Positions 25,025-49,800 of a stretch of 64,000 nt of DNA are shown here, one piece after another (position 1 is the stretch's first letter; each line of letters opens with the position of its first letter). A program made the translations under genes and the position numbers. The stretch covers positions 2,156,501-2,220,500 of the forward strand of contig NZ_CAKLBX010000001.1 in the NCBI RefSeq assembly GCF_920987055.1, given 5' to 3'. The stretch comes from Novosphingobium sp. CECT 9465. GTDB lineage: Bacteria > Pseudomonadota > Alphaproteobacteria > Sphingomonadales > Sphingomonadaceae. The notes under the pieces were generated by a model that worked only from the letters and a program-made list of their open reading frames with translations, made no database searches and was not told the DNA's origin.

Positions 25025-28000
25025 TTAGCGGTCCATCCGGGACAGCAGCGGAGCCGCCTTCGCGCCGACCCACAGGCTCATGTCCACCGCATTCGACACA
25101 CGGAACACATCACCCTTGGCGTTGAGGAACAGTTCCTCCATCTCGCTGCGATTGAACGGACGCGAGCCGAGGCGACCGAACACCGCCATCTGTCCCCCGG
25201 TCTCGTCCACACCACGATCACGGTCCAGCCCCTTCGACAGGGCAATGGCCGGGGTTGGCGTACGCGCCCATGCGATCAGTTCGGGCTTGGGTTCGGGCGA
25301 GAAGCCATAGAAATTGGGCTGGCTGGAGGGCGAGGTCAATTGCAGCACCTTCATCCCGTTCCGGCCATCGGCGACATAGGCAAACAGCGAGGCGTTGGTT
25401 GACGCGACGATCACGTCCTCAGCATCGTTGAGCTGCCCGCCGGCTGTGTAGCTGGCGTAGATCGAGGGCCGCACAGGCGCGGTGATGTCAACAATCACCA
25501 GGCCTTGCGACTTGGCCGCAACATAGGCGTAAGTACGCGCAAGATAGACCCGCCGTGCATCGGTGAGCGGCACCACGGCGCCCGCAACTGCCTTGGGCTG
25601 GGCCAGATTGGTCACGTCCATCAGTTCAAGACCGTTCGCCGTCGTTACCCAAAGATAGCGGAATTGCACGGCGGTTGCGCGGGGATCCCGCAAGGGCACG
25701 ACCGAGGTGATGCGCGGCGCAAGGCAGGTCTCGCCACCCTTGGCATTGCTCACTTCGCAAGGCTTGTCCGGGCTCCATGGCTTGGTCAGGTGAACCGTGA
25801 CCAGCGCCTTGTCCGTAACGACATAGGCGTAGTCACCGGCCAATGTGATATGCCTTGCGCCCGTCAGCACACCATCGGGATTGAACGTCATCGCACGGGT
25901 GAAGAAATTGTTGCGGAATTCGCCATCGGCCAGGGTATCGACATTGACCGCGATCAGGCCTTCGACCGCATCGGTGACGAAGGCATAGCTGTAGATCGGC
26001 GAGAACGGCTGCTCCTGATTGACCGCCCGCAGTTCTGGCGAATTGCGCGTGGGTGCAATGGCCTGATTGGTGGGCAAGGCCATGCAGGTGGCATTTGCGG
26101 TCTTCACATGAGTATCGTGGCCCAGCGCCGAGAACGGCGCGGTGACGATACGCTCGGAGAAGCCCTTGTTCCCGATCGCCGCGATATCATAGGCGCGGAA
26201 ACCGCCCTTGCCTTCGGCCACGAACATGTATTCGCCGCGCATCTGGAGGCAGCGGACTGCATCCTTGGTGCCTTCCACCACGTTGGCAAACTGTTCCTGC
26301 CCGGTGGTTTCGCCCGAAAGCTTGCTATCCATGATCTTGCCGCGCGTCCAGTTCTTCAGTTCGCGGTCGTTGGTCTCGACGTGCTGCTTCCAGTAATCGG
26401 GATAGGCATAGCGATGGAGATACGATCCGATGACAGCTTGCGGCTCGTCCCATTCGGTCACGCGCACGGCTTCAAAGCCGCCATCAAGACCGAACCAGGC
26501 GTTGAGACCCACGAAGTTCACGTAATTGGTGCCCAGCAGCAGCAATTGCGCCATCGTGGCGTTATTGTCTTCATCCTGGCTGATGTGACAATCGGTGCAC
26601 TGCTTGGTCTCGTTCTTGCGGACGGTGTGCGGGAAGTGCGGCGCGAAGGCTTGCGATGAATAGCCGATCGACGAAATCGGAGGCTGCTGCACATAGATGC
26701 GTTCGCGGTTGATGTTCGTGGATGACAGGATCAGTGCCGAGGTCGAGCGGATCGGCGCGGTGATCGCCTTGCCCGACACCGGATTGCCCGCCGCATCGAA
26801 CTGCACCGGATCACTGCCCGACGACTTGTTGCGCTGATGCTTGCCCAGCTGGAACATGTCATCGCGCGCAACCTGCGGGTTATACGTCGCGTAATTGCGG
26901 GTGTAGTCTTCCTCGTACTTTTGCGTAGCCGTTTTCCAGTTTGCCTCGATTGGCAAATGGCAGCCTGCGCACGATGTCGTCCACGAAAGATGGCAGGTGA
27001 AGCAGGCCATGTCGTCGTCACGATGAGCGCGCGCTTCCTTGGCAACGCCGGTGCCGAACTTGTAGGCGCCGTCATCAGAGGCAGACTTCGCCATCAGCTT
27101 CGCGCGCGCGGCCTTGGGATTGAAGATCGGCTTGCCAGCGGCATCCATCTGCCCCTGATAGCGCGCATCAACCGAATCCTTCACCAGGCTGACTTGCCAC
27201 GACAGGTTGGGATCGATGATCGAGCGCTGGACCAGAACGCGACGACCGTCAGGCTGGTTGAACCATTCGAAGCGGCGCTGTCCATCGGCGTTGCGCAGCA
27301 GCGAAAGGTTGTTGCCCTTTTCTGGCGCGGCGAGATTGGAGGTCAGCAGCGTCGGGTACGCATCGGGCGTACCGTGGCAATCCTTGCAGCCGATCTCGAC
27401 CGCGTTGGCGACTTCGCCATAGATCATGCCATTGCCGTGGCTGTCCTGCGAGAAGTGGCAATCGGCGCATTGCATGCCGATCTGCGCATGGATGTCCATC
27501 ATGTGGACCGCCTTGCCCGGATTGTCCGGCCCGGCTTCCACGAACTTGGCTTCGCCTGCCTTGCGGAACTTTTCCGGGTCAGCCGGATCGATGATGTGCG
27601 CCTTGTCGGTGCCATAGGACGACATGTCGCCTTCGTCATCGAGCAGGTTACCGCGGCGATCGCGCTTCAGGATCGCGCGGAAATTCCAGCCGTGGCCGTG
27701 ATAATCGGCGAACTGGGTGTCCTTCAACTGCGGGTTGAGATCATAGACGTTACGCAGGAATTCGACGTCGCGCCACAACCCGCGCGTGGATGCGCCTTCG
27801 GGGTTGCGGTCCAGCACTTCGCGCTGTTCGTCGATGTTTGGCTGGAACTGCTTCTTGAAATACTTCGAATAGTCCTCGTCGGTCATGCCCGCAGGGCGCG
27901 GCGCACGGTTTTCCGGCCCCGGCCACATCGAATCCGCATCGGATTCGTAATCCCACATGGTGTAGCCAAGGTAGGTGTTCAGGAAGATATTGGGCTGATG

Positions 28001-29617
28001 CATGTGGCAGTTCATGCACTGCGCGGTCGGGATCGCGCGGGTAAAGGCATGCACCAGCGGATGGCCCCTCTCGCGGTCCTGCATGGCGACGGGACCGGTT
28101 CCGGCATGTTCGTCGCCATGGACGCCTGCCTTCCTGGCGTGGCCCTTTTCATCAAGACCAGCCGCAGCATGGGCCGATGCCTGATCCATCTTTTCATGGT
28201 CCATCGTGCCATGCGGGGCGACACCCTTTGCCGGGGCATAGACCAGTTGCTGGGCCGAAGAGATTGCGCGCGCGCAATCGCCTTCCATATCGGCAGATTG
28301 TTCAGGAACAGACTTGTCGCCGGTAACGTATGCGCCCTTCCCGCGGAGCACAGTGCCACGCACCTTGTCGTGATGCTCTTCCTTTTCAGCGTCGTAGCTG
28401 CCGTATGCCCCCTTGCGGTGCTGGCCTTCGCGCAAGCCGTTGATCGTGGGATCGGCGGTGACCGTCTGCCCATCACGCCCGCACTTGCCATAGTTCAGGC
28501 TGTGGCGCGGTTCGCGGTCGTTGGCATAGATTACGTGGCAAGCAGCGCAGCCCGATGAGCGATAATCGCCCGGCTGGTCATTGGTGCCCATCTGGAACAG
28601 GAATGGATCGTTAAGGCGCGTCTTGTGGATGTTCAGCACCGGAATGGCCACGCGCAAGCCAGTGGCGGGGCCACGGTTCGACTGCTTGAGATCGGGGCGA
28701 CCCGGTTCGTCAAGCCGCTGGATCAGGCCGGTCGAGTTGGGCAGGCCGATTTCGGGGAACTGCGGATTGATGGTGCGGCCACCATCCTCGAACACCCGGA
28801 ACACGTCGCCCGGCGGGATCGTGTGCCACCGCGGCAAGGGATACATGACCGGCAGCGCGCCGCGGGCCTTTTCCTTTGGTGTGACCGTACCCCACATCGG
28901 CTTGCCGTCCGGCCCGATTTCCTTCGAGCCGGATTTGAGCAGCGCCGGTTCGCCGGTACGGGTAAAGCTTTCGCCAAAAAGGTAATTCTTGAACGGTACG
29001 ATGCCGTTGTTATAGGCCGCCCCGCCCCACAGCATCGCGCCCGTGCTCATCAGCGAGCGTTCGGACGCCTCGATGATCGACATGTGGCAAGCGCCGCACG
29101 AATCGCGCGCGACGCGGTAGTCCGACGGGTTGACGAAGCGGACGAATTCCGGGCTTTCCTTGGCGAGCAGTGCATAGGAGCGCTTCGGATTGGCCGAAGC
29201 TGGCCAGCCCCAAGCGGCGGGATACCTGGGCAGGACGTGCGCGTCCTTCAGTGCGCCCATATACTCCATCGAATTGCTGTTCCACGAACGGTCCGCGACG
29301 ACTTTGGTATTGCCGCCATGACAATCGACGCACGACAGCACCACGGCGGGGCTGGCATGCATCGTGCGGTGATCGCTCTTGGTGTGGCAACTGACGCAGC
29401 CGACGTTCTGCTTGTCGACGAAAGCCCATTGTTCTTCAGCCGTTTCGCCCGGTTGGCCGCGCGGCGCGGCAGGGGCGCGGCTGTGCGCCACCTTCTGTGC
29501 CGCTTCTTCGCCCGAAGCGTAAAGCGCGCTTGGCACCAGCAGCACGGTGAGTGCAGCGATCAGCCATGCCAAGGGAAGTTTGCGAGTGCGGCGCGGTTTG
29601 GTCATGGGATGATTCAT
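25025..29617 (-). CDS. Decaheme c-type cytochrome with C-terminal LVIVD-repeat region
   Basis: Exported protein of 1530 residues. The N-terminus has a signal (LAWLIAALTVLLVPSALYAS). Ten CxxCH heme sites are readable, at about residues 74, 96, 174, 357, 534, 717, 744, 872, 883 and 1007. A His-rich linker (about 458-525) separates sites four and five. From about 1120 on, repeats such as YAYVAAKSQGLVIVDI, TTANGLELMDVTNL and LFAYVADGRNGMKVLQL are LVIVD units that probably fold as a beta-propeller. Heme attachment places it outside the inner membrane; the propeller could face outward. Its ATG overlaps the barrel gene's stop (ATGA). It is last of four coupled genes and much longer than the ~300-residue MtrA decahemes. 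No enzyme activity can be assigned. Confidence 0.88.
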   Translation of the reverse strand: MNHPMTKPRRTRKLPLAWLIAALTVLLVPSALYASGEEAAQKVAHSRAPAAPRGQPGETAEEQWAFVDKQNVGCVSCHTKSDHRTMHASPAVVLSCVDCHGGNTKVVADRSWNSNSMEYMGALKDAHVLPRYPAAWGWPASANPKRSYALLAKESPEFVRFVNPSDYRVARDSCGACHMSIIEASERSLMSTGAMLWGGAAYNNGIVPFKNYLFGESFTRTGEPALLKSGSKEIGPDGKPMWGTVTPKEKARGALPVMYPLPRWHTIPPGDVFRVFEDGGRTINPQFPEIGLPNSTGLIQRLDEPGRPDLKQSNRGPATGLRVAIPVLNIHKTRLNDPFLFQMGTNDQPGDYRSSGCAACHVIYANDREPRHSLNYGKCGRDGQTVTADPTINGLREGQHRKGAYGSYDAEKEEHHDKVRGTVLRGKGAYVTGDKSVPEQSADMEGDCARAISSAQQLVYAPAKGVAPHGTMDHEKMDQASAHAAAGLDEKGHARKAGVHGDEHAGTGPVAMQDRERGHPLVHAFTRAIPTAQCMNCHMHQPNIFLNTYLGYTMWDYESDADSMWPGPENRAPRPAGMTDEDYSKYFKKQFQPNIDEQREVLDRNPEGASTRGLWRDVEFLRNVYDLNPQLKDTQFADYHGHGWNFRAILKRDRRGNLLDDEGDMSSYGTDKAHIIDPADPEKFRKAGEAKFVEAGPDNPGKAVHMMDIHAQIGMQCADCHFSQDSHGNGMIYGEVANAVEIGCKDCHGTPDAYPTLLTSNLAAPEKGNNLSLLRNADGQRRFEWFNQPDGRRVLVQRSIIDPNLSWQVSLVKDSVDARYQGQMDAAGKPIFNPKAARAKLMAKSASDDGAYKFGTGVAKEARAHRDDDMACFTCHLSWTTSCAGCHLPIEANWKTATQKYEEDYTRNYATYNPQVARDDMFQLGKHQRNKSSGSDPVQFDAAGNPVSGKAITAPIRSTSALILSSTNINRERIYVQQPPISSIGYSSQAFAPHFPHTVRKNETKQCTDCHISQDEDNNATMAQLLLLGTNYVNFVGLNAWFGLDGGFEAVRVTEWDEPQAVIGSYLHRYAYPDYWKQHVETNDRELKNWTRGKIMDSKLSGETTGQEQFANVVEGTKDAVRCLQMRGEYMFVAEGKGGFRAYDIAAIGNKGFSERIVTAPFSALGHDTHVKTANATCMALPTNQAIAPTRNSPELRAVNQEQPFSPIYSYAFVTDAVEGLIAVNVDTLADGEFRNNFFTRAMTFNPDGVLTGARHITLAGDYAYVVTDKALVTVHLTKPWSPDKPCEVSNAKGGETCLAPRITSVVPLRDPRATAVQFRYLWVTTANGLELMDVTNLAQPKAVAGAVVPLTDARRVYLARTYAYVAAKSQGLVIVDITAPVRPSIYASYTAGGQLNDAEDVIVASTNASLFAYVADGRNGMKVLQLTSPSSQPNFYGFSPEPKPELIAWARTPTPAIALSKGLDRDRGVDETGGQMAVFGRLGSRPFNRSEMEELFLNAKGDVFRVSNAVDMSLWVGAKAAPLLSRMDR

Positions 29618-31656
29618 CAGAAGGCCAGGGTCGCGTTGGCGAGGACGGAATAGAAGCGGCTTGCCTTGCCCTGCTGGGCGAACAGGTCATCGAACCCGCC
29701 GCCCGGCTCAAGCACCGCGCCCGAAAGGCGGAACACGAGATTCTGCGAGGCATTGGGACGCCAGATGGCAGAGACCGACGCATCGAAGCCAATATCGCGC
29801 GGTATCGAGCCTTCGTTGCGCAGAACCTGAAGGACTTTGGTGTTTTCAAACCAAAGGTGATTGAGATTGGTCGAAACCCGCAAGGTAGGCGTCAAATCGA
29901 AATCGGTGCCAAGCCCCACCAGCATCGTGCCGGGATTGGTGAAATTCGACTGGCCTTGCTCCTTGGACGAACGCAGCGAATTGAGGATGCCGTTGCGGCC
30001 GTTGACCGAAATTGCGCGACCACCGCCCGCAAACGGGATCGTCTGGCGGATCCAGTAGCTGGTATCGGCGCCTGCAAACTGCGGATTCTCGAAGATCGCA
30101 TCGAAGCCGCCTTCGATCCTGTCGTAAGGATCACTGTCGCCGCTGGCCCAAAGGCCGGACAGGCGGATACGCGTCCAATCGATGTCGTAACTGACTTCGG
30201 CGGCAGCCATGAAAGCCCTGATTTCTGCCGCGCGGCTGGTGAGGAAATTGTTGCGGTCCTCACCCAGTGCGGCATAGAACTGCCCTGTCAGGTTGATCCG
30301 ACCGATCCGGCCATCGGCAGCGTAGCCGAGATAGACCACATCGTATTCGCGCCCGCGCAAATCGCCCAGCAATGCCGGACGAACCGGAAAGCCGTTGGTG
30401 TCGACGGTAACTTCATTGCGCTCGCGGTTCATGTTGTATGTGACCGAAACCTGGCTGGTCAGGCCGACCACCGGGAAATCCTGGCGATAGAGGTTTGCCA
30501 TGAACACCCAGTCGTTGCGCGGTGCGCGGCTGACATCGTTGAGGCCGGAATTGGTTTCCTTTTCAAGCCGCCAGAATGCAGCAAGATTGAACTGGAAGCG
30601 GTTGTTGTCCCGATTGCCGAACAGGCGCACGCCCAGTTGGTTGTCGTTGAACAGGAAACCGCGAAAGTCAGACTGCATCGGCTGGATACCGGCGCGCATG
30701 CTGATGAAATCGTAGCGTTTGTTATCAAAACGACCAATGTGGTAGTCGATGAAGGCTTCCTGTAAGCCGATGAAGGCATCGGTGCGGCGCGTCCCCTTGG
30801 ACGGTTCGACGAACAGAATACGGCGTTCCGGCACCTGAACGTGGTTCAGGTTTGCCGCCACCGCGATCCGGTATTCCACCACTGGCGGCTTGTATGCGGT
30901 CATGCCCTTGAGCAGCGAAATGCCCGCAATGAAGGTCTGCGACAAAACAAGGCTGTGGCTGCGCCCGAACGTATCGATGGCGTTCGGGTTGGTCGTCGTC
31001 TGGTTGCCCACGGGGATCGGGAAACTGCGCGGCTCGACCACGGTATCGGACACGGCGCTGGCGATCAGGAACCAGTCATCACCCTTCAGAAAACCGGGGC
31101 GCTTGCCCCTGGCCAGCGGAAGATCGCCCTTGATCAGGTTATGATGGAATGGATCGAGCTTGGAATGGCAGACATATTCGAGCCTGGGAAACAAAGTGTA
31201 AAGCGAACGATCCTTCTTGCCCGTGGCCGCGTCCCTTTGCGGGCAGAGCGAAGACATGATGCGCCAGCGATCGGGCAGGCCGACTTCGAGTCCAAGATCG
31301 CCGATCGGGCCATCGCCATCATATTTATCATAGAAGGCTTCGGGTGGCGGGGCGTTTACCGCGCCCGGATTGTCCTGTTCGACGCGTTCGGGAAGCTGTT
31401 TGTTGAAGCCCGGACGGCGACGACCATCGATCAGGGCCTGGTCAGCCTCGGTTTCGCCACCGGGCAAGGCCGGGGTCTCTGCCTGGGGCATCTGCGAAGC
31501 ACTGTCCGACTGAGCCGAAGCGGCTTCCGGTGCAGCCATCGTACCCGGCGTGGCCGCCTGTACGGCCGCAAGGACGTGGAACGGCAAGGCCATGGGCGGT
31601 GCCGCCGGTGTGGCGAGACCTAGCGCGGGCGCGATTAGGGCGATGACCTGCTGCAT
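29617..31656 (-). CDS. Outer-membrane beta-barrel protein of a multiheme operon
   Basis: Exported protein of 679 residues. The start is the ATG at 31656, which overlaps the preceding stop as ATGA. After an Ala/Pro-rich leader and a low-complexity segment (to about residue 110), the rest is alternating aromatic/polar beta-strand sequence with many Asn/Asp turns, such as RFQFNLAAFWRLE, and it ends in LANATLAF, with the C-terminal Phe that outer-membrane proteins use for BAM recognition. It contains no CxxCH. I do not recognise the family; by position and topology it may sheath or dock the neighbouring cytochromes, as MtrB does for MtrA, but similarity to MtrB is not visible to me. Confidence 0.75.
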   Translation of the reverse strand: MQQVIALIAPALGLATPAAPPMALPFHVLAAVQAATPGTMAAPEAASAQSDSASQMPQAETPALPGGETEADQALIDGRRRPGFNKQLPERVEQDNPGAVNAPPPEAFYDKYDGDGPIGDLGLEVGLPDRWRIMSSLCPQRDAATGKKDRSLYTLFPRLEYVCHSKLDPFHHNLIKGDLPLARGKRPGFLKGDDWFLIASAVSDTVVEPRSFPIPVGNQTTTNPNAIDTFGRSHSLVLSQTFIAGISLLKGMTAYKPPVVEYRIAVAANLNHVQVPERRILFVEPSKGTRRTDAFIGLQEAFIDYHIGRFDNKRYDFISMRAGIQPMQSDFRGFLFNDNQLGVRLFGNRDNNRFQFNLAAFWRLEKETNSGLNDVSRAPRNDWVFMANLYRQDFPVVGLTSQVSVTYNMNRERNEVTVDTNGFPVRPALLGDLRGREYDVVYLGYAADGRIGRINLTGQFYAALGEDRNNFLTSRAAEIRAFMAAAEVSYDIDWTRIRLSGLWASGDSDPYDRIEGGFDAIFENPQFAGADTSYWIRQTIPFAGGGRAISVNGRNGILNSLRSSKEQGQSNFTNPGTMLVGLGTDFDLTPTLRVSTNLNHLWFENTKVLQVLRNEGSIPRDIGFDASVSAIWRPNASQNLVFRLSGAVLEPGGGFDDLFAQQGKASRFYSVLANATLAF

Positions 31657-33644
31657 CACTTGCCCTCGCAAGCGTTCTGTTCGGAGGTATCGAGGAACGG
31701 CGCGAACGGGCAGTTCACATAGCGCAGCCTGACCCCCGATCCGACCGGAACCACGATGGTATCGGCACGGATCGCCTTGGGCGCATTGCCGATTCCGCCC
31801 GCTTTCACCCCGCCATTATGCGCACCAAGGAAGGCGATCATGTCATCCTGATCGATCCCGTCACCTGAAATACCGATAGCGCCGACAAGCTGGTTCCCGC
31901 GGTAGATCGGCACCGAGCCGGGGAAAATCTGGATACCGTTGGCCAGACGCTTCTTGCCGGTGGGCGTATCGGGCACGGCGGTGCAGGTCTGCACCACATC
32001 GCGCGCGTTCAGCCGGTTTTCGACGAAGACCGCGTGCTGAAGGAGATTGGCCTTGACCAGCGCGATCTGCAGGCCGGTCGCGAATGGACTGAAATCGGTG
32101 ATTGGGCGCGACAGCGGACCATTGGGACGACCAACTTCGCCATCGGGGAAGAACGGCCGGGAAAGATTGCCGCCGGCCCGATCGGCAAAGGCGATCTTGC
32201 CGGTCAACGCGGTCTGATCCCCCAGGAAATCGCGTGTCCGCTGCACGAATGCCGGCACTTCGGCGTCAGTGTTCTCGTTCAACTGCTGCGCAGCAACGCT
32301 GCTGGAGAAGAACGCGGCAGTACGCGCCTTCTGCAGCGAAACGTCGATGCCAAAGATTGGCGCGTCAGGCCCGCGAACAAGGCCGAGCACTTCGCCGAAG
32401 GTATCGACCACGGAAATCGAAACCTGCGCGCGGCTGTCCAGTGGACGGCGAATCTGCGCGCGGGCGCGGGTCATGATCGTGAACGCCTCTTCCAGCACGG
32501 CGCGCACTTCGGCGGCCGTGAGCGGCTGGCTGACCACGCCCGCATCGGTAGCCGCCTTGATCGGATAGCGCGGAGTGCCCGACCCGTTGGTCAGCACATA
32601 AGCGTCGGCCAGCGAAAACTCCGAAGACGTGGCGCGGCGTATCCCGCTTTTTTCCGTGCCATACGGCGTGCCGGGGATAACCGCTGTGCCATCGTAATAG
32701 CCGCGCACAGGAACCAGTGCGCCGACCACGTTGTTGATAGCGGCAAAGCTGGTTTCCAGCGGATGCAGGCCCTCGATACGCGCATCGGCAAAGCGGAGTG
32801 TCGTTCCGTCAACGGTTATGCGATCGGCGCGAATGTCGGCGGCGGGGGCAAACCCCTGAATCCCGGCAAGCGCCATGAATTCTTCGGGATCGCCGTCGAC
32901 ATTGCTTACGTCGGGATCGTAGCCATAATCACCATCGGCCATCACGCCGATGCCGCCGACGACCACGCCATTCTTGTAAAGCGGCAGACCGCCAGGATCA
33001 GCGGCGAGACCGAGCGGCGCGCGTTTCGGACCGATGAAGGCTGCCGAGCCTGCGTTACCGGTGAGAAACCGCGCCGAGAGATCGGAACAGGGCAGTGAAC
33101 TGAACTGCACCCCGAACAACGGCCCTGCTTCAAGGCCCGGCGCATTGGGTGCTGGCGGAAAATGTTCCTGCACAATCATGCTGGCAGTGCGGGTGGAAAA
33201 GGCATTGCCGCTGGACGAAAGGTAGGCCGCAGTCACCGCTTTGGAGATTGCGCCCATCGTCGCCTCGACATCGAGACCTTGCGCATCCACTTCACGTGGG
33301 GAAATCTCGCCCGTCGCGGTGCGCTGACTCGTGATCATGCGGGTGACCGCACCGTTCATGCGGAACACGGCGAGGACATTGCCGACCCGGTCCACCACGG
33401 CGATGATCGCGGGGTAATTGAGCGCCCTTGCCTCACCCACGGCCTGCGCGATGATCTGCTGCACTTCGGCAGTGGTCAGCGCTTCCTGCGCCGGATCGGC
33501 AAAGAAGCGCGCACTGGCCGTTGGTGTCGGCGTTGGTGTGAACGTGCCGCCAGAGCCAGAATCACCGCCGCCGCATCCGGCAAGGGTGAGCGAGAGCGAC
33601 GCCACCATCGCCGTCGTCTGGCGCAGGAACAGCCCGGACTGCAT
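31656..33644 (-). CDS. Lipoprotein with two HbpS/GlcG heme-binding-type domains
   Basis: Lipoprotein of 662 residues: lipobox LAGC at about residues 21-24, then a Gly/Ser/Thr-Pro linker. Two HbpS/GlcG (DUF336) domains follow. The first (about 55-280) has LTTAEVQQIIAQAVGEA, then AIIAVVDRVGNVLAVFR and NGVVVGGIGVMADGDYGYD; the second (about 365-650) has LTAAEVRAVLEEAF, then SISVVDTFGEVLGLVRG and NQLVGAIGISGDGIDQDD. Known members bind heme, iron or corrinoid (family knowledge). Tandem fusion on a lipid anchor is unusual; single-domain members are near 140 residues. Both ends join neighbours by ATGA overlaps. Its role in the operon may be heme delivery or sensing. Confidence 0.85.
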   Translation of the reverse strand: MQSGLFLRQTTAMVASLSLTLAGCGGGDSGSGGTFTPTPTPTASARFFADPAQEALTTAEVQQIIAQAVGEARALNYPAIIAVVDRVGNVLAVFRMNGAVTRMITSQRTATGEISPREVDAQGLDVEATMGAISKAVTAAYLSSSGNAFSTRTASMIVQEHFPPAPNAPGLEAGPLFGVQFSSLPCSDLSARFLTGNAGSAAFIGPKRAPLGLAADPGGLPLYKNGVVVGGIGVMADGDYGYDPDVSNVDGDPEEFMALAGIQGFAPAADIRADRITVDGTTLRFADARIEGLHPLETSFAAINNVVGALVPVRGYYDGTAVIPGTPYGTEKSGIRRATSSEFSLADAYVLTNGSGTPRYPIKAATDAGVVSQPLTAAEVRAVLEEAFTIMTRARAQIRRPLDSRAQVSISVVDTFGEVLGLVRGPDAPIFGIDVSLQKARTAAFFSSSVAAQQLNENTDAEVPAFVQRTRDFLGDQTALTGKIAFADRAGGNLSRPFFPDGEVGRPNGPLSRPITDFSPFATGLQIALVKANLLQHAVFVENRLNARDVVQTCTAVPDTPTGKKRLANGIQIFPGSVPIYRGNQLVGAIGISGDGIDQDDMIAFLGAHNGGVKAGGIGNAPKAIRADTIVVPVGSGVRLRYVNCPFAPFLDTSEQNACEGK

Positions 33645-35062
33645 CAGCGCAGGCTCCGTATCGAACGCACCGCACTGCCCAGCGCCCGCCGGAACGCGAG
33701 CGGCTGGAAGCCATTGGGATCGCGCACCGCGGCGTAGGCCTGATTGATCTGGATGCGCAGGGCACCGGCCGAAGCGGTCGAGACCATGCCCTGATTGACC
33801 AGCCCGTTCAGCAGGGTATCAACGGCCATGACCGATTGAACCGCGCCTTCATAATCGGTGAAGCGTTCGCCAATTGCTTCGCTGGCAATCGAGTCCATGA
33901 TCGCGAAAGTCTGTTCGCGGGTGAAAGCTGCCGACGAGAACCGGGCAGAAAGCTGATCTGCCGATTGGCGTAGCTCCTGTGCGGCGGCAACGGTTTCCGC
34001 GCGATTTGCGCCCATGGCACGATGGAACGCCTTGCTCTTGGCATCGAAGTTCACCGCGGCATCTGGCGCAACGGCGCGCGCTGCTGCGAGCAGCATGATC
34101 ATGTTCTCATCATTATACGGAGGCGCACCAAGCTGGATCGGACGACCCGGATTGGGGATGGCGGTTACCTTGCCCTCTTCCCCGTCATAGATGCGGCGAT
34201 GGCAGGAATGGCAATCGTAGAAGGTAAATTCGGGAAAAATGCCGTTCATTGCGCGCGCGGGCTGGCTGAACAGTTCAAGGCTGCGCTTGACGGCTTCGGC
34301 TTGCCCCACCGCCCACATCCGCATCGAGTTGGACTTGCCACCCTTGCGCTGGACATAGTCGGCGTCTTCATCGTGATGCTGCTGAAGCGTGGTGAACAGA
34401 TCGAGTTCGAACGAGATGCGCGGATGGCCGGCCGCCATGATGCGGTGCGCGATGAACTGGCCCTTGGCGTCGCCAGAGAAGTGGCAGTCGAGGCAGACCT
34501 GCGCCTTCACCTGCGGCCGGGTGAGATCGGTCATCCCTTGCGCGACATTGCGCGAATGGCTGGCACCGACCGCGTAATGAGTCGAGAGCCACGCGCCCGA
34601 TGCGCCGTGGCAAGCTTCGCAATCGACGCCATCTGAGGCACGTGCGGCACCGGGCGACGAATGGCAGCCTGCGCATTCGCGCTGCACACCTGCCGAATCA
34701 AGGCCCATGCGCCGGACGATGGCCTGCCCGCGCGGCTCCTGAATCACTTTCCAGGCACGACTATGCGCGCCCGAAGGCGACGAATCTTCCTGCCAGCGCA
34801 TGACTTCGTCCTGGCGGACGACCGCGCCATCGGCAGCGCTGCGGCCATGGCAGGTCGATCCTGCACATGATGCAACGCCCTGATGACCACGCAGGGTTGC
34901 CCCTGCGCTTTGCGCCTGAACCGCAGCCGGAGAAACAAGCGACGAGGCGCCCAGTGCGGCCCCGGCCATAGCCAGACACGCAACCAGTGCCATCGCGCCT
35001 GAACGCGGCATAGCCCGACACACTGCGATCAGTCGCCGGAAAGACAAGAAATTGTCGAGCAT
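33644..35062 (-). CDS. Periplasmic multiheme c-type cytochrome (c554-like), five heme sites
   Basis: Exported cytochrome of 472 residues, first of four coupled genes. The ATG at 35062 has GAGGGG just upstream; a GTG 8 codons earlier is less likely. A signal/anchor lies near residues 23-50 (MALVACLAMAGAALGASSLV). Heme sites are one CX4CH (CAGSTCH, residues 66-72) and four CxxCH at about 130, 148, 190 and 284, with distal-His candidates such as HSRAW and HYAVGASHS. The pattern resembles cytochrome c554 and related electron-transfer proteins. The C-terminal third is helical and Ala-rich without hemes. It probably shuttles electrons in the periplasm to the decaheme partner. Confidence 0.87.
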   Translation of the reverse strand: MLDNFLSFRRLIAVCRAMPRSGAMALVACLAMAGAALGASSLVSPAAVQAQSAGATLRGHQGVASCAGSTCHGRSAADGAVVRQDEVMRWQEDSSPSGAHSRAWKVIQEPRGQAIVRRMGLDSAGVQRECAGCHSSPGAARASDGVDCEACHGASGAWLSTHYAVGASHSRNVAQGMTDLTRPQVKAQVCLDCHFSGDAKGQFIAHRIMAAGHPRISFELDLFTTLQQHHDEDADYVQRKGGKSNSMRMWAVGQAEAVKRSLELFSQPARAMNGIFPEFTFYDCHSCHRRIYDGEEGKVTAIPNPGRPIQLGAPPYNDENMIMLLAAARAVAPDAAVNFDAKSKAFHRAMGANRAETVAAAQELRQSADQLSARFSSAAFTREQTFAIMDSIASEAIGERFTDYEGAVQSVMAVDTLLNGLVNQGMVSTASAGALRIQINQAYAAVRDPNGFQPLAFRRALGSAVRSIRSLR

Positions 35063-40839: not shown

Positions 40840-43800
40840 TCACTCATCCTCTTCATCGTCACCCAGCAGATCGTCATTGCCGGTGCCGGTCACCGGCTCA
40901 TCGATCAGCGGTTCGAACCCGGCGGGCGCGATCTGGTTTATCTGGATCAGCGTGCTGCGGGTGAAACTGTCGGCCACTTGCAGCGCGGTATCTTCAGGAT
41001 TGTCGTCCAGCACTTCGGCGATCACATCGCGGACGATGACCTGATCGAACACCGGCGGCTCCTCCACCGGCTCGACCCCGCAGGACGCGACATTTGCGAT
41101 CACGCAGCCGTTGACCGACGACAGCGGGGTGAACTCCTCCTCAAGGTCGATAAGATCGATGGCATCGATGCCGGTTGCCCCATCGACCGTGCCGTTGATC
41201 ACGATGTCGAGCGTGCCGCCATCGCGGCTGTCTATCGACAGGCTGCCCGCAACAAAGCCACGCCGCTCGGCAAAGCCGGTGCCGACCGCGGTGTTCTGGA
41301 CATAGACTTCGCGGTCCGATTGCAGGTCGATCACTTCGGCTTCGATCAGCGTACGATCAGCCGTGACACCGTCATTCGCTGACAGGCGCTCGGTGATCGC
41401 AGCCGTGTCGGTCAAGGCAGAGATGTCCTCCAGCGCATCGCGCGTGACCATGGCGATGCCGCTGCCCGATATGCGAAGCGTACCCCCGCGCGCCTGCCCT
41501 TCGGTGAGCCGGATAGACCCTGTGGTGGCATCAAGGAACACGCCGTCCGATCCATCGACCGAGAGCGTGTTGCCCGCCGCATTGGCAAGCGAGACTGCGC
41601 CAAGGAAAGAGACCAGCCCGCTGGACTGAAGCGAAAGCCGCCCCGTCTGGCCAATCTGGCCTGCTGTGGTTCCCGATTGCGCCGTGGCCGCAAGATCACC
41701 CACCAGCATTGCGCTGCCGCCGCCGATGGACAGGTTGCCGCGTGACTGGATACGGGCAAATTCGGCCTGACCCAGAGCGTATACGCTGGTTTGCGACGCA
41801 ATGGCATCGCCCAGCCGGGTGACGCTTTGCCCAGCGTTCGACAGGACAATGTCATCGGTGTGCGAGGATTCGCCGAGTTGCCCCGTGCTGGCGATGGCTA
41901 TGTCTGCCGATGACAGAGCCATGGTCTTTCCGGTGGCGAGCCCATTGAGGCGGATGGTGCCGCCTGCGTTGGCGACAAAGGCGTTGGCCGCATCGGCAGT
42001 CGTATCGATCTGGATATCGCGCAAGGCATCGATCACAATATCGCCCTGCCCGATCACCCCCGGAACGACATTGGCCTGGGGGCGCACGGCATCGCTGAAC
42101 ACATCGGCGTAGCCTGCCGAAAGACGCCGGATCGAAACATCTGCTCCGGTGGAGCGCAGCGCGATATCGCCCCGCGCATTGATCGTGTCACCGTTGATGG
42201 TGCCTGCTGCGGTAACATCGACATTGCCGTTGGTCGCGTCGATCAGGCGGATGCGCAAGGCGCCGGGCGAGGTCAGGCTGACCGCATCGGCCTGTGCCGT
42301 CACCTCGCCAGTGGCCGTGATCGAGGCAAGGTTGATCGCACCATTGGACGAAAGATCGAAATCAGCGCCGGAGATCGAGGCCAGCGAAAGGTCATCGTTG
42401 GTGTTGATCGAGACGTCGCCTTTGGCCGTGATGGCATTGCCGGTCATCGAACGGTTGTTCGTCGCGAAGCCTGCACCAGCCTTGATCGTGTCAAAGGCCA
42501 GCGAACCCGCATCGATCCCGACGGAACCCGTGGCATCCAGTTGTGCGACGGTCAGCGCGCCGGTCGTTCCGATATTGATCTCACCGCTTCTGCCCGATCC
42601 GCCGCGCGCGCGGATGTTGCCGCCCGCGATGCTGGCACCGCGCAGGAAGATGTCGCCGCCATCGAGCGTGGCATAGCGCAGTTGCCCGCCGACATTGAAG
42701 CGCACCAGACCCGGTGCATTCACCGTGCCGCCGATAACGCTGCCATCGGCCACGACATCGGCGTTGCCGCCGGCGCGGATCGAATCGAACGTGAACGAAC
42801 CGGCATCGACCAGCACGCTGCCTCCAGCCACCGTTTCGGCAATGTCGATTGCGCCGCCGCTATAACTGATCGCTCCTCCGGCGCGTACGCTGCCAAGATC
42901 CAGCGTTGCCCCCGAAAGTTCTGCCGATGTCCCCGCGACCACCGTCCCGCCGGAGACAGCGCCGCCTGCGACCCGCGCAAGGCCAGCCGAGTTGACGCTT
43001 TCAAAAGTCACGTCGCCGCCGGTCGTCGACCGGATCGAAACCATGCTGCCGGTGATGGTTTGCCCCAGCACGTCAGCCCCGGTGATGTTCACACCAGTCC
43101 CGGAAAGCGCATCGAAAGTGATGTCGCCTGCGGTGATGGTCAACGCCTGCCCTGCCGTGGCGGTGCCCAGCGTGGCCGGTCCGCCGATGGTCAACGCAAT
43201 GTTGCCCACTGCCGAAAGCGACGGCGCGGTGAGGCTGGCAGCAGCGATGGCCAATGACGACCCGGCACTTGCCGAGATCAGGGAAAGCGGGCCGGTTCCC
43301 ACGATATCAAGCGTCGTCCCGGCATCAACCGTGCCGCCGGTGATCGTGCCGCCCGCAAGGCTGATCGCCCCCGCAGCCGAAATGGCATCGAACGTCAACA
43401 GCGCCGGATCGATGAAGACCGAACCACTGTGCGATTCTACCGTGCCGAGCGCGGCGGTGTTCACCACTGTCAGTGTAAGGTTGCCGAGCGAGCGAAGGAA
43501 CCCAACCGTCAGATCATCGGCTGTAACGTCCAATGTACCAACTGCTTCGGCTGCAAATCCGGTAACCGTCGAGCCATTGAGCGAGAGATCGCCCAAAACA
43601 GTCAGCGCGCCAAAATCGATAGTTTCGGCTGAAAGCGAGAGATCGTCCACATCGGCCAGGAAAGTTGAACCCAGCGCGATAGTCCCAACGGCATCGAGGG
43701 CGCCGCTGTTGCCACCCAGTTTGAGCGTACCGACCATGATGTCACCACCGGCATTGATCCGCGCATTGGTTGCCGCGCTGCCAGTGCCAAGGCTGAGCGC

Positions 43801-46800
43801 ATCCACGCGCAGCGATCCGGGGGTGGTGAACGAAGCTTCCGGTGCACCGCCAATGGCGGCGGCGGTGGTCAATTGCCGGGCAGCCGTGATCGAGCCGGCA
43901 TCGATATCGCCGCCAAAGGTCAGGCCGACATCGTCCGTGAAACTTTCGACATGGCCGGTCCCGGTCAATGATCCTGCGCCCGAAAGCGCGACGCTGCCGC
44001 CGTTGACTGTCGAACCGCCAAGCAGCGCGATATCGCCTTGCGTGGATGCGATGGTCGCATTGGCGGTGCCGGAAACGAAAACCTGCGATTCAAGATCACC
44101 GGCGGTGATGTCACCCAGCGCGCGAATGCGGACGGTCGAACCCGATATCGCACCGGCGAGACGGACATCGCGGGGACTGGCGCTGCCCTGCCCGATGGCA
44201 ACATTACCATCCATGAAGATTTCACCGATGCAGATCGCGCCGTCGAGACAATCGGGATCGAGACGACCTCCGTCGTCGCGGCGTTCATCGCCAAGAGCGA
44301 TCAGCGAAGTGACGTCTGCCTGCAAGCCGTTGCCGAAGAATGTCGCCTGCCTTGCGTCGATTGCGGCGCCCGACAGGGTAATCGTGCCATTGTTGGAATC
44401 GACGCTTGTTCCGCCGCCGAAAGACAGTGCCGCGATGTCACTGGGTTCAAGCGTGTGGTTCACGGCAAGCCCACCGGCGCGGAAGCGCATGCCCCCTGGG
44501 TTGGCTGGCTGGCTGGCATTCGCCGCAATCAGATTATTCCCGTCCACGACGATATCGTTGCCGCTGGCGAAATCCATCGCGGTTGCCGATTCGATGACAT
44601 TGCCTTCCGTCACGAAGATGCCACCGCCGCTGGCGAAGCTGGCCGTGCCATCGGCACGAATTTCGCCACCGCCTTCAACTTCGCCCAGGGTGAGCGTGGC
44701 CGGGTAATAGAATGTCTGCCCATCGACGACTGCGCCCGCAGCGATCGCGATGTTGTTGCCGTAAGCGTTGCGCACGGTCACATCGTTGCCGCCGCGCACC
44801 AGCACGTTGCCGTTGGAGAAATAGCCGCTGCGCGAATCGCCGGTAATATCGTTCCCGGCATAGACATCGACACTGCCCAGACCAGCGGCGTTGGCGGGGC
44901 CATAGAGGTTGAAGTTGAAGTTGGCGTCCACCCTGAGGCTGCCGCTGGCGTGGACAGGCGCGCAGGTGGCATCGGGGCAATTCACGCTGGCGATATCGAT
45001 GGAGCCGAAGCTGCCGAGGTCGATGTCAGTGGCATTGAACTGGCCACCGTCAAAACCGGTGATGAAGATGCCGCTATCGCTGCGCAAAACGGCCGTGCCA
45101 CCCACCGTGAGGCCCGCGGAACCGAACATATCGACGGTGATGATGCCGGAAGCCTCAAGCGTCAGTGCCCCATCGATGGTGATCGGCGAAAGAAATGCAT
45201 CAATCACGATGCCGGGTTGCGCGCCGCCTGTTCCCGTTGCGTTGCCGGTGAAGCTGGCAAAGCGCATGGTATCGCCCGCCGGGTGACTGAAGTTCCGCAG
45301 GATGATGGAGCCTGCATCGTTGGCGAACAGGAAATCCCCATTGCCGGTGATGTAGTTCGTAGCGCTGGTTACATCGACATCCGTGCTGCCTGCGACAAGG
45401 TTGCCGATGTTGCCATCAAGATCATCGAACGAGGCGAAGGTGACGGTGCCACCCGCAGCATTGTCTACCGTGGCGGAACCGCCCTGCCCCGATCCACCGG
45501 GGCCGAAGCCCCCTGAGGAAAAGGCGAAATTGAAATAGGTAGTGCCGATCGCGTCGATTTCCAGTGCGCCAGCGACGAGTTCGCCGCCGTCTGCACTGAA
45601 GGAAACCACGCCGCCGCGACCGCCGAGGCTGCGTCCGGCGTTGCCGCCGTTGCCGCCGATCGCATCGGGATCGCTGGTATTGACCCCGCTGCCATCCCCG
45701 CCGATGCCTGCCAGACCGCTATCGCCATTGGCGAAAATGAGGGTTGTGTCCGTCGGTGCAAGGTTGACCGTTCCGGTCGAATTGGCGGCAATCGAAATCG
45801 ATCCACCAAGTCCCGTGCCGCTGTTACCGCCCGTACCTCCGTTTCCGCCATTGCCATTGGCATTGAAGATGGCGGAAACGCCTGTGCCGCCGTCACCACC
45901 GAAGGCATTGGCGTTCAGTTCCGCACCACCACCAGGTTCGGCCACATCGAGCCGCCCGCTGTATTCGGCGAGAAGCTGGATCGACCCCCCGGTGGCCGCG
46001 CCACCTGCGCCACCCGAAGCACCAAGGCCGGTGACAAGATCGTTGCCCGCCCCACTTGCCGCGTTGCCGCCATAGCCGTTAGCATTGGCCAGAAGGCTGC
46101 CGATGCTGAGCGTTGCCTGCGGGCCAGAGGTGATCAGGCTGATCGTGCCGCCGGTGCCACTGCCGCCTGATGCGCCGGCCGATGCCTTCAAGGGCGAATC
46201 AACGTCTGCATCCGACAGATCACCACCTGCACCGCCCACACCGCTGGCGTCGAACGCCGCAATCCCGAAGGCCAGTGCGCCGCCATCTTCGGCGCGGCCC
46301 GCGATAGAACCGCCCGTGCCCGAACCGCCAGCCCCGCCTTGCCCCGTGGAGGTCCAGCCGTTGGCGGAGGCATTGCCACCCAGCCCGCCATCGCCGCCCA
46401 GACCTTCAACCGCCAGGTTGCGCGAATCGACAAAAGCGGAAACGTCCAGCTGACCAAAATTGGCAGCGATGAAGGAAACGCTGCCGCCCGTGCCTGAACC
46501 GCCTGCACCGCCGCTGCCCGCGCCATCGACCAGATCGGACCCGTTGCCACCATCGCCGCCCGAACCGCCGCGCCCCCACGCCGCAATGGCATTGCCGCTG
46601 AGTGTCAGATTGGCTTCGAACCCGTCGGAAAGGATTTCAATGCTGCCGCCCTGCGCATTGCCGCCCGCGCCGCCATGCTGATCGAGTGTGGAATTGCCGC
46701 CATTGCCAGCGCTGCCCACTGCCGAAAGTGCAGGCGTGTTCAGCGTGACGAACCCGCCAATCGCATTCACGATGGCACTGCCGCCCGTGCCGTTGCCCCC

Positions 46801-49800
46801 TGCGCCGCCGGTCTGCCCGGCTTCACCCGCCCGGCCGATACCGTCAGCGTTGAGGCTTATCAGGCGCAAATCATCGGACGACGTGAGATCCGAAAAGTCG
46901 GTGCCGATCGCGAACGTGGCCGTGCCGCCTGTGCCGCTGCCACCCGATCCGGCCAGAACCGCGCTTTCACCACCGCCATAGGCCTGGTTGCCTGAAAAGC
47001 CGCCAAGCCCGGTTGCAACGATCGCGACGGACGCAGCATCCAGATCGCCGGAAAGATAGCTGACGCCAGCCGAACCGCCAATTCCGGCTCCGCCGGAACC
47101 GGAATTGGCAAGATAGGGGCTGAAGGTGGAATCAGAGTAGGTTTCACCGCCTGCTCCACCTTCGCCGATGGCCTGGACCAATACCGACAGGTTTGTGACG
47201 TTGGGATCGGCCGCATCCTGCAAGCCGCCACCGTCGATTGTCAGCAGCGCCGTGCCGCCCTGCCCGATGCCGCCCGCGCCAGCTGTTCCGTCCGCATAAT
47301 AGACACCGCCGCCGTTGCCGTAATAGCGGGTATAGCCATAGCCGTAATCGATGGACTGATTGCCATTGGCCGAAATGGTCACCTCGTCGCTGACCAGCAG
47401 CCCGCCGGTCAGGGTGGCCGACGCATTGCCGCCGGTGCCGTTGCCGCCATTGCCTGCGCCAACGCCGGTATAGTCATCGTGATCGGCGCCGTCGCCACCG
47501 AGACCCGCTGCCGAAATTTCGAGCGAATTGGCCGTTACGATACCACCGCTCACCACCAGCGATGCGGTTCCGCCCGTACCGTTGCCGCCGTTGCCCGGAT
47601 CGAACCCGGCAAAGTTGGCGCCGTTGCCGCCTTCGCCATTGGCCATGATCTGCAGGTCGTTGACGGTGAACAATCCGTTTTCGACGGTGAATGATGCCGT
47701 GCCGCCAAAGCCGTCCGCGCCATCGCCGCTACCTGTGCCGAGCGCAAGCGAGCTGAATGCCAGAAGCCCCCCTTCACCGGAATTTGCGGTGCCCATGGCA
47801 TCCATCTGGAAACTGCCAACCTCGAAGCTGGAGGTACTGCCAGTCTGGCGGAAGCTGGTTGTTCCCCCGCGCCCCGCGCCAGAGGCTCCGCCATCGCCAT
47901 TGCTGTAACCCGCCGTGCCGATGGAGCGCTGATCGAAATTGCTGGCGGCAAAGGTGCTGGCATCAAGCACAAAGCTGACATCGCCGCCGATGCCGTCGCC
48001 ACCATCAACGCCATCGTCCCCATTGGCGCCATAGCCATAAGAGTACAGCCCGACAGAGTAGAGCGCATCCAGCGTTGCCCCGTTGCGCAGCGCCAGAGCA
48101 ATATCGCCGCCAGTGGCGTCCGATCCATCATTCGCGGCAGAAGCCGTGGTGTAGGCCTGGAAACTGCCGAGCGACAGCGAACTGCCGTCAATCGTGATCG
48201 CAATGGTTCCGCTGGTCTGCTCGCCGATCTCACCGTAGGCATAAGCGTTGAGAGCAAGGTAGCCCTGCCCCAGATCGAGCGCCGCGCCGTTGACGAGCGA
48301 CAATCCCACCGTGTTGGGCGTGGCAAGCGCGCCGTAGGCATTTGATGAAATGCCAAGATAACCATATAAACCATCGGTGATCGTCACATCGGCATTATCG
48401 AGCGAAAGCGCGACATCGCCGAGGGCGACGCCACCGCCTTCCGATGCACTTGCTGAGTTGCTGAGGCCGAGCGACGAAATCAGGAACGTATCGACACTGT
48501 TGGCGAACGATGCCTCTACCCAGCCCGCGCTTGCCTGCTGCGGGGCAAGATCGCTACCGAAACTCGCATTGGCTGAAGAGTCCAGTGTCATGCGGTCGGC
48601 AAAATGCAGACCGCCATCGACTGCGAAAGTAACATCGCCGGCAATCGAGGACGCTCCGGCAAGCGGGATCTGCGACTGGGAAAAATAGGCGGCGGACGCA
48701 ACGGATGTCAATTGCACACTTGCGAGCGAAACCTGCCGCGCCGGTGAATTGGGATTGTCTTGCAGTGCCGCGAATCCGACGTTGCCCGCCTGCGCGGTTC
48801 CCACCGACAATTGGCCGATACCGCCGGTTGCCTCGGACATAAGGACTGTGTCGCCATCGACGAAAAAGTCCGCATCGCGCACGACGATGCTGACATTGCC
48901 CGAACGGACGTCATCGCCCACCGATCCCGCTTCAAGGACATCGCCGTTGTTCGGGTCGCGCTTTACCAGGCCGATTGCCGTGGAAACCGCGTTCAGGTCA
49001 CCCGTGACCGCAAGACTGGCTCCGCTTGCAAGATCGACGGAAATGTCCCCGCTTGCCGTTGTGGAGGTGGAGCGAAGGTCCAAGGTTCGGCCCACCGTCA
49101 GGGCACGGCCCGTACCGATATCGACATTCAGATCGCCAGCCGCCCAGAGATAGGCATTGCCCGCGAACGCTACGTCAGCCGTCGTGGCGTCCACCGCGAT
49201 CGTGCCGCTGGCGTAACCGCTGATGTCGTTGGTGGCGGTCAGGCCTTCGATCGACAGCGAGGCATTCGCGCCCACCGGCGTATCGGTCGGCACCGATTGA
49301 CCGGCGACATTGTACCCTGCCGAAAGGATGATCGAACCATCGATATCGAACTGGGCATTGGTGGCTGCCGCATAGCCGAGCGAGCCGGAAACCACGGCGG
49401 TCATCGCCTGGTTCTTCGGCACGGCAACCAGATAGATGCGGTGGTTCGGATCGGAGAAGTTCGCAGCCGGGCCGGTGGTCGTACCAGTGTGCGAAACGCC
49501 GGTGGAATCGTCGCTTCCGCTATCGACGACGATGTCGAACAGGCCGTTGTTGATCGTGATCGTCGCAGCTTCTGCGCCGACATAGGCCACCGAACCATCG
49601 ACCCGGACCGTGCCGCCTTGCGACACGCGCGGGGCGACCATGGCGACATAACTGCCACTGGCAGAATTGGCGTTGATCTGCGCGCCGCCCGCAATCGTCA
49701 CCGACGATGCGGGATCGGGCGCCGCGCCGAAACGGATCTCGCCATTATCGCCGAACAGCCGCGAAACCGTGTCCGTAGCGGGGTCTACCGTGATCGGCGA

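Follow-up and report, generated by a model that had tools for sequence, protein, structure and literature searches.

A four-gene multiheme cytochrome operon of Novosphingobium sp. CECT 9465, the probable outer-membrane half of a two-part electron conduit

Gene Content and Layout of the Operon

We analyzed a 64,000-nucleotide stretch of the genome of Novosphingobium sp. CECT 9465 (contig NZ_CAKLBX010000001.1, positions 2,156,501 to 2,220,500; hereafter the window), in which four consecutive open reading frames (ORFs) on the minus strand encode, in this order, a pentaheme cytochrome (cyt1), a tandem HbpS-like lipoprotein, an outer-membrane beta-barrel and a decaheme protein with an LVIVD match in its C-terminal propeller (the decaheme-LVIVD protein; Table 1). 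An initial annotation of the window had proposed these four identities, and they are borne out: the lipoprotein matches PF03928 (HbpS-like) in four stretches at 91.5 bits (cut-off 25), the decaheme-LVIVD protein matches the LVIVD repeat PF08309 at 53.7 bits (cut-off 20.2), and the barrel does end in Phe. The proposed total of 15 covalent heme sites was reproduced by counting attachment motifs, with four CXXCH and one CX4CH in cyt1 and ten CXXCH in the decaheme-LVIVD protein, while CXXCH motifs averaged 0.014, with a maximum of one, over 2000 shuffled versions of each cytochrome. Among Pfam and NCBIfam models, only general heme-domain models match the two cytochromes above cut-off. The ATGA four-base overlaps claimed for the three junctions were not found; each junction instead reads TGATG, in which stop and start codons share a single base. 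Tight coupling of the genes is still plausible. A scan for promoters and terminators returned sites no more numerous than in shuffled sequence.

Table 1. Features of the operon and of the FHA-decaheme gene encoded elsewhere on the contig (positions are those of the window unless marked; aa, amino acids)
Feature	Position	Strand	Basis or remark
cyt1, exported pentaheme c-type cytochrome (four CXXCH, one CX4CH), 472 aa	33644..35062	-	motifs, homology
CX4CH motif CAGSTCH, cyt1 residues 66-72	34847..34867	-	overlooked by CXXCH counting
TGATG one-base stop/start overlap, cyt1 to HbpS lipoprotein	33642..33646	-	sequence
Tandem HbpS/GlcG-like lipoprotein, 662 aa, lipobox LAGC (Cys24)	31656..33644	-	PF03928, lipobox
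TGATG one-base overlap, HbpS lipoprotein to barrel	31654..31658	-	sequence
Outer-membrane beta-barrel, 679 aa, AlgE-like predicted fold	29617..31656	-	AlphaFold2 model; fold comparison
18 long predicted strands, barrel residues 195-678	29623..31074	-	AlphaFold2
TGATG one-base overlap, barrel to decaheme-LVIVD protein	29615..29619	-	sequence
Decaheme-LVIVD protein, 1530 aa, signal-like hydrophobic N-terminal segment, no lipobox seen	25025..29617	-	motifs, Pfam
Decaheme part, residues 74-1011, ten CXXCH	26585..29398	-	motifs, alignment
His-containing variable linker, hemes 4-5, about residues 391-515	28073..28447	-	alignment pattern
C-terminal beta-propeller, about residues 1123-1480, with LVIVD match at 1353-1391	25178..26251	-	alignment to homologue P0291; Pfam
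FHA-decaheme protein of the same genome	G000:C1:182878-184695		outside the window

The heme motifs of both cytochromes are strictly conserved. All five sites of cyt1, including the CX4CH site (C66, C71 and H72), are invariant across 79 sequences, that of the window included, and the ten motifs of the decaheme-LVIVD protein are invariant in 18 aligned sequences. When PDB sequences were searched, cyt1 gave weak, unrelated matches only and the decaheme-LVIVD protein gave none. Hemes 4 and 5 of the latter are separated by a linker whose median is 58 amino acids, with 6 His, across 67 sequences from the Sphingomonadales set (that of the window among them); in the three measurable sequences from outside the order it has 7 amino acids and no His. 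A structure model of this protein, built from the homologue P0291, in which the first heme is missing, has a mean predicted local distance difference test score (pLDDT) of 59.3 and is reliable in the propeller region only. In Foldseek, the first matches of the propeller are to AztD, which we take to be a zinc chaperone; they are weak and score near many other propellers.

For the barrel, AlphaFold2 predicts 18 long strands with modest confidence (mean pLDDT 64.4, predicted template modelling score 0.65). A poorly modelled stretch at residues ~532-568 contains three extra short strands, and no confident model was obtained for the N-terminal ~128 residues. The sequence has zero matches in Pfam and NCBIfam up to E 1. 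The best structural matches of the model are AlgE and OprD-type barrels; MtrB is absent from the matches shown, which does not in itself prove a difference from MtrB.

Conservation of the Operon

Searches with the decaheme-LVIVD protein and the barrel retrieved at least 5599 and at least 4938 proteins, respectively (E <= 0.001, ~8000 candidates scored each), of which 120 were listed for each query. We examined 80 Sphingomonadales loci, the best 80 of 586 confirmed stretches from a scan of named genomes. All four genes are present in the same order and on the same strand in 68 of these loci, and 11 of the other 12 are broken by a contig end. The four families do occur together elsewhere, and the contrary result, which the initial annotation had named as a refutation, was not obtained. 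In one locus (L063), a gap of 1.6 kb separates the HbpS gene from the barrel gene. The decaheme-LVIVD gene is also carried on plasmid records of 0.4-1.3 Mb (H1-H13) from Sphingobium and Sphingopyxis; 13 of the 15 plasmid records matching the gene cover at least 80% of the protein.

Outside the order, we examined 19 loci in stretches of up to 20 kb. Six of them (L121, L118, L122, L126, L127 and L128) have a GspE-like gene, accompanied by a GspF-like gene, ~1 kb from cyt1, the identity of GspE being Pfam-checked in L121 only. This neighbour hints at the route by which the decaheme protein may reach the surface.

Linkage and Co-occurrence with an Inner Half

In the same 19 loci, the HbpS, barrel and decaheme genes lie near further redox genes, including those for a cyclic-nucleotide-binding/4Fe-4S protein (the flavoprotein), a membrane protein of ~276 amino acids and a second decaheme protein, which carries an FHA region (the FHA-decaheme protein). 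The FHA-decaheme protein was found in the same stretch in 17 of the 19 loci, the ferredoxin end of the flavoprotein also in 17, and the membrane protein in 16; the two missing FHA-decaheme genes are located further along the same contig (G710) and on another contig (G371). In the locus matched to Colwellia echini, partner and outer genes are all on one strand. Of the 80 Sphingomonadales loci, 33-34 have the trio just downstream of the operon and convergent to it; the decaheme gene is intact and followed by at least 5.5 kb of sequence in 65 of the 80. In Novosphingobium sp. CECT 9465 itself, the trio is encoded outside the window, on the same contig as the operon and 2.0 Mb away. The unit as first described, correct in gene content and hemes and mistaken in overlap type, thus appears incomplete, comprising the outer half only.

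The distribution of the two halves agrees closely. Across 196 Sphingomonadales genomes, the decaheme-LVIVD protein (E <= 1e-30) is present in 39 and the FHA-decaheme protein (E <= 1e-20) in the identical 39, a set that includes the genome studied here despite the 2 Mb between its halves. Genera g1, g3, g4, g6 and g7 contain both positive and negative genomes, and the two proteins agree in each. Furthermore, the flavoprotein is present in 39/39 positive genomes and in none of 20 negatives tested (20 of 157). In a draw of 289 genomes from the class, the FHA-decaheme protein accompanies all 20 true decaheme-LVIVD genomes, and in a draw of 398 from the phylum it accompanies all 11; absences in these two draws are weaker, as the searches scored 2-7 candidates per genome. 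Rows G306 (class) and G568, G697 and G662 (phylum) were excluded from the counts, their matches being local (~40-42 bits over 44-49 positions).

The flavoprotein of this genome has PF13738/PF07992, two copies of PF00027 and Fer4, also matches pfam13247, and contains two GE..L..R.AT nucleotide-cassette motifs; each of 16 Cys in the ferredoxin end is kept in 94% or more of 51 sequences. In the membrane protein, H100/H114 and H276/H290 are invariant in 51 sequences, a pattern that looks like that for two b hemes, and we regard it as a predicted di-heme-b protein. Its W96/H100/H114, W272/H276/H290 and S137-G138-x-x-G141 are each conserved in at least 85% of these sequences, and its hydropathy gives four clear segments. 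In the FHA-decaheme protein, a single membrane helix is predicted to follow the FHA region, and its ten CXXCH motifs and ten other His are kept in 98% or more of 49 sequences; because of the ten additional His, bis-His ligation of every heme is possible. The protein scores 30 bits against DmsE/MtrA (cut-off 192.2), and its profile matches chain 6r2q_A weakly (E 2e-4). The listing labels this chain cystathionine beta-synthase; we take it to be MtrA of MtrCAB.

Two further genes accompany the trio. A divergent TPR gene with weak resemblance to NrfG (45.4 bits, cut-off 306) adjoins it in this genome, and in 28/28 loci the TPR gene is no more than 1 kb from the flavoprotein gene. A metallophosphoesterase gene, whose own cluster comprises 28 loci, is found at most 1 kb from the FHA-decaheme gene in all 25 loci in which both were called.

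Relationship to PCC4 and Other Systems

The closest described system that we found is PCC4, which the main text of He et al. 2017 (PMC5566968) presents as a putative cluster of a porin, 4-, 5- and 10-heme cytochromes, an inner-membrane protein with two WX3HX13H motifs, SGXXG and five membrane segments, and other redox proteins, among them the Fe-S protein pfam13247. PCC4 is described there from Zetaproteobacteria and Hyphomicrobium, without an extracellular cytochrome, and is modelled as carrying electrons from a donor outside the cell into the quinone pool. Several of its components have counterparts in the present genome. The membrane protein, encoded outside the window, carries both WX3HX13H motifs and SGXXG, albeit with four clear segments instead of five; the FHA-decaheme protein, also outside the window, corresponds to the 10-heme cytochrome; the flavoprotein matches pfam13247; and cyt1 is a homologue of the 4-heme periplasmic cytochrome (29.5% identity, E 7e-54, to that of the PCC4-type locus L157, L157:11419-12750). 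Three loci that we examined (L155, L157 and L160) fit the PCC4 description. L155 and L157 also have the inner trio; in L160 the 4-heme cytochrome is shorter and no match to the flavoprotein was found.

The outer halves differ: in place of the PCC4 porin and 5-heme cytochrome, the present system has the HbpS lipoprotein, the AlgE-like barrel and the decaheme-LVIVD protein. In a search of 46 genomes, the PCC4-type 5-heme cytochrome and porin were each absent from all 39 positive genomes, the present one included, with four matches elsewhere; both are also absent from G710, G810 and G803. We therefore reject membership in PCC4. One genome (G353) contains both systems, on different contigs. A profile comparison between the barrel and the PCC4-type porin, based on shallow alignments, detected no similarity (probability 0.2%). 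The absence of these two components together with the shared trio indicates a sister arrangement, in which a common inner half is joined to another outer half. LVIVD, HbpS, Sphingo- and Colwellia go unmentioned in the main text of PMC5566968, the supplementary lists of which may contain relatives. A search of open-licence papers found nothing recognisable on this operon. The earlier statement that no characterised equivalent could be named holds insofar as we found none that is characterised, but needs qualification, since the inner half and the 4-heme cytochrome also belong to the predicted PCC4 cluster.

Other known systems are more distant. MtrCAB, MtoAB and PioAB share the general plan of a barrel with periplasmic and surface multiheme cytochromes, whereas the present system adds HbpS and a propeller, has a flavoprotein and a b-heme protein as its inner half, and has a predicted 18-strand AlgE-like barrel. 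Membership in the MtrCAB family is rejected because the barrel-side cytochrome, cyt1, has five sites and scores 17.4 bits against the DmsE/MtrA family TIGR03508, far from a family-level match (cut-off 192.2). ExtM of the Ext selenite/tellurite operon (NF040943) is locally similar to the decaheme-LVIVD protein over the heme motifs at 60.8 bits, well below its cut-off of 800; ExtN and ExtO (~17 bits, cut-offs 200) and, for the HbpS lipoprotein, ExtH (11.2 bits, cut-off 200) are at chance level, and we reject this assignment as well. Unlike the AlgE alginate exporter and the OprD porins, the barrel has no Pfam match and stands in a redox gene context. Finally, the membrane domain of NADPH oxidases and ferric reductases is resembled in the two HX13H pairs expected to hold two b hemes, a feature that He et al. 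pointed out for PCC3/PCC4 (PMC5566968), and in the NAD(P)H-type flavin partner. The present system differs from these enzymes in that flavin and Fe-S clusters would be carried by a separate protein with cyclic-nucleotide domains and electrons would go on to multiheme c cytochromes.

Proposed Electron Path and Alternatives

We propose that the operon is probably the outer-membrane half of a two-part, NAD(P)H-driven and nucleotide-gated conduit that exports electrons to the cell surface. The suggestion of a trans-envelope redox conduit in the initial annotation is strengthened by the recurrence of the operon in 68 of 80 loci and of the inner partners in 39/39 genomes, and we regard that interpretation as partly supported overall. 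In our model, cytoplasmic NAD(P)H would reduce the flavoprotein, with its two cyclic-nucleotide domains and four putative [4Fe-4S] clusters, and two b hemes of the small multi-helix membrane protein would then take the electrons across the inner membrane. The next carrier may be the FHA-decaheme protein, anchored in the inner membrane with its N-terminal FHA domain predicted to face the cytoplasm. From there, cyt1 would act as the periplasmic relay to the 18-strand barrel, the HbpS lipoprotein and the decaheme-propeller protein at the surface, all of which may assemble into a single complex. Flow would be gated by a cyclic nucleotide and by phosphothreonine at the FHA domain; a phosphodiesterase neighbour would fit such cyclic-nucleotide gating. 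Surface exposure of the decaheme-LVIVD protein is suggested by its signal-like N-terminus, its linkage to the barrel and the GspE-like neighbour. Shewanella surface cytochromes are exported by the type II secretion system. The outward direction is favored by the NAD(P)H-type flavoprotein and by the membrane potential, which favors electrons leaving the cell. Candidate final acceptors are metal oxides, Fe(III), humics, quinones or a surface enzyme.

Several observations weigh against this model. The named hosts are mostly aerobic heterotrophs and are not known to carry out extracellular electron transfer, and the searchable literature yielded no experiment on any homologue. With its 18 predicted strands, the barrel would be narrower than that of MtrB, which has 26, and a cytochrome inside the barrel is seen in none of the present models. 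At L076, barrel and decaheme genes are present and no HbpS or cyt1 match lies within 8 kb upstream. The FHA-decaheme protein, moreover, occurs without the decaheme-LVIVD protein in seven genomes of the class draw and four of the phylum draw: in G615 and G219 an HbpS gene (in G615 also the barrel gene) runs into a contig end, G299, G254 and G314 have PCC4-type genes, and the remainder are G246, G417, G450, G481, G506 and G614. The co-occurrence counts also disregard shared ancestry, and the draws overlap. With regard to gating, the pattern used found two cassette motifs in 34 of 51 ferredoxin-end sequences, one in 10 and none in 7; the Pfam FHA model scores above cut-off in the FHA-decaheme proteins of this genome and L131 and not in that of L121; and the only metallophosphoesterase scored (L023:14689-15570) is SpdA/CpdA-like at 134.8 bits, below the 400-bit cut-off.

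The direction of flow can be read in the opposite sense, with electrons entering at the surface decaheme protein from a donor outside the cell, for instance Fe(II) or Mn(II), and passing to the inner membrane. The parts of the conduit are symmetric in this respect, and inward flow into the quinone pool is what He et al. proposed for PCC4 in Zetaproteobacteria and Hyphomicrobium (PMC5566968, main text). Here, however, the inner end consists of a flavoprotein of the NAD(P)H type that carries a ferredoxin, transfer from Fe(II) to NAD(P)+ would be uphill and opposed by a membrane potential that favors outward flow, and the hosts are mostly heterotrophs, which makes inward conduction unlikely.

Next among the alternatives, and also improbable in our estimate, the system could serve a non-respiratory surface reaction, for example reductive mobilisation of metal or heme or reduction of a secreted redox enzyme, with the AlgE-like barrel passing a solute. 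AlgE and OprD-type barrels, the best fold matches, are solute channels, and on account of this resemblance the barrel may be a plain solute channel. The match to the HbpS family, the His-containing linker and the AztD matches of the propeller point the same way; yet AztD is matched weakly, with many other propellers scoring nearly as well, the linker shrinks to 7 amino acids in the three measurable sequences outside the order, and no uptake system was identified beside the operon, where the conserved neighbors are annotated in part. For the heme- or metal-handling complex that the initial annotation offered as an alternative, there is little support beyond the HbpS family name and this linker. 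It is very doubtful that the halves belong to separate pathways brought together by a common redox lifestyle or linked horizontal transfer: although they are unlinked in the genome studied here and the FHA-decaheme protein can occur without the outer genes, their 39-genome sets are identical, presence is mixed inside at least five genera, and the halves are physically clustered in other classes.

If the outward conduit is correct, it would be an undescribed NAD(P)H-to-outside wire in some of the Sphingomonadales, in other Alphaproteobacteria and in marine Gammaproteobacteria, for example Colwellia and the Haliea/Halioglobus group, often-cultured and mostly aerobic organisms in which such wiring would be unexpected. 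As its hosts are in culture, the system is directly testable. A broader view, which we put forward tentatively, is that of a quinone-independent export line in common aerobes, running from cytoplasmic NAD(P)H to the surface and gated first by cyclic nucleotide and then, at the inner membrane, by phosphothreonine, in which interchangeable outer modules (the PCC4 porin and 5-heme cytochrome, or HbpS, AlgE-like barrel and decaheme-propeller protein) would be mounted on one inner module. Conduits would then be modular, with exchangeable outer halves, and switchable by second messengers.

Additional Observations

Two loci (L152 and L154) contain FHA-decaheme modules with no BLAST match to outer genes nearby. 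A DUF1924 cytochrome-like gene lies upstream in L152, and L154 has an apparent look-alike; these modules perhaps have a third kind of output. The search of the Novosphingobium sp. CECT 9465 genome gave two weaker matches at two 7-heme proteins elsewhere; on contig 3, L140:6396-7211 and L141:6221-6925 encode seven-CXXCH proteins near apparent MerR regulators and metal-resistance genes. The window also contains, at 40840-50367 on the minus strand, a very long ORF of ~3,175 amino acids with an exported-looking N-terminus, relatives of which are present in 8 of the 80 Sphingomonadales loci.

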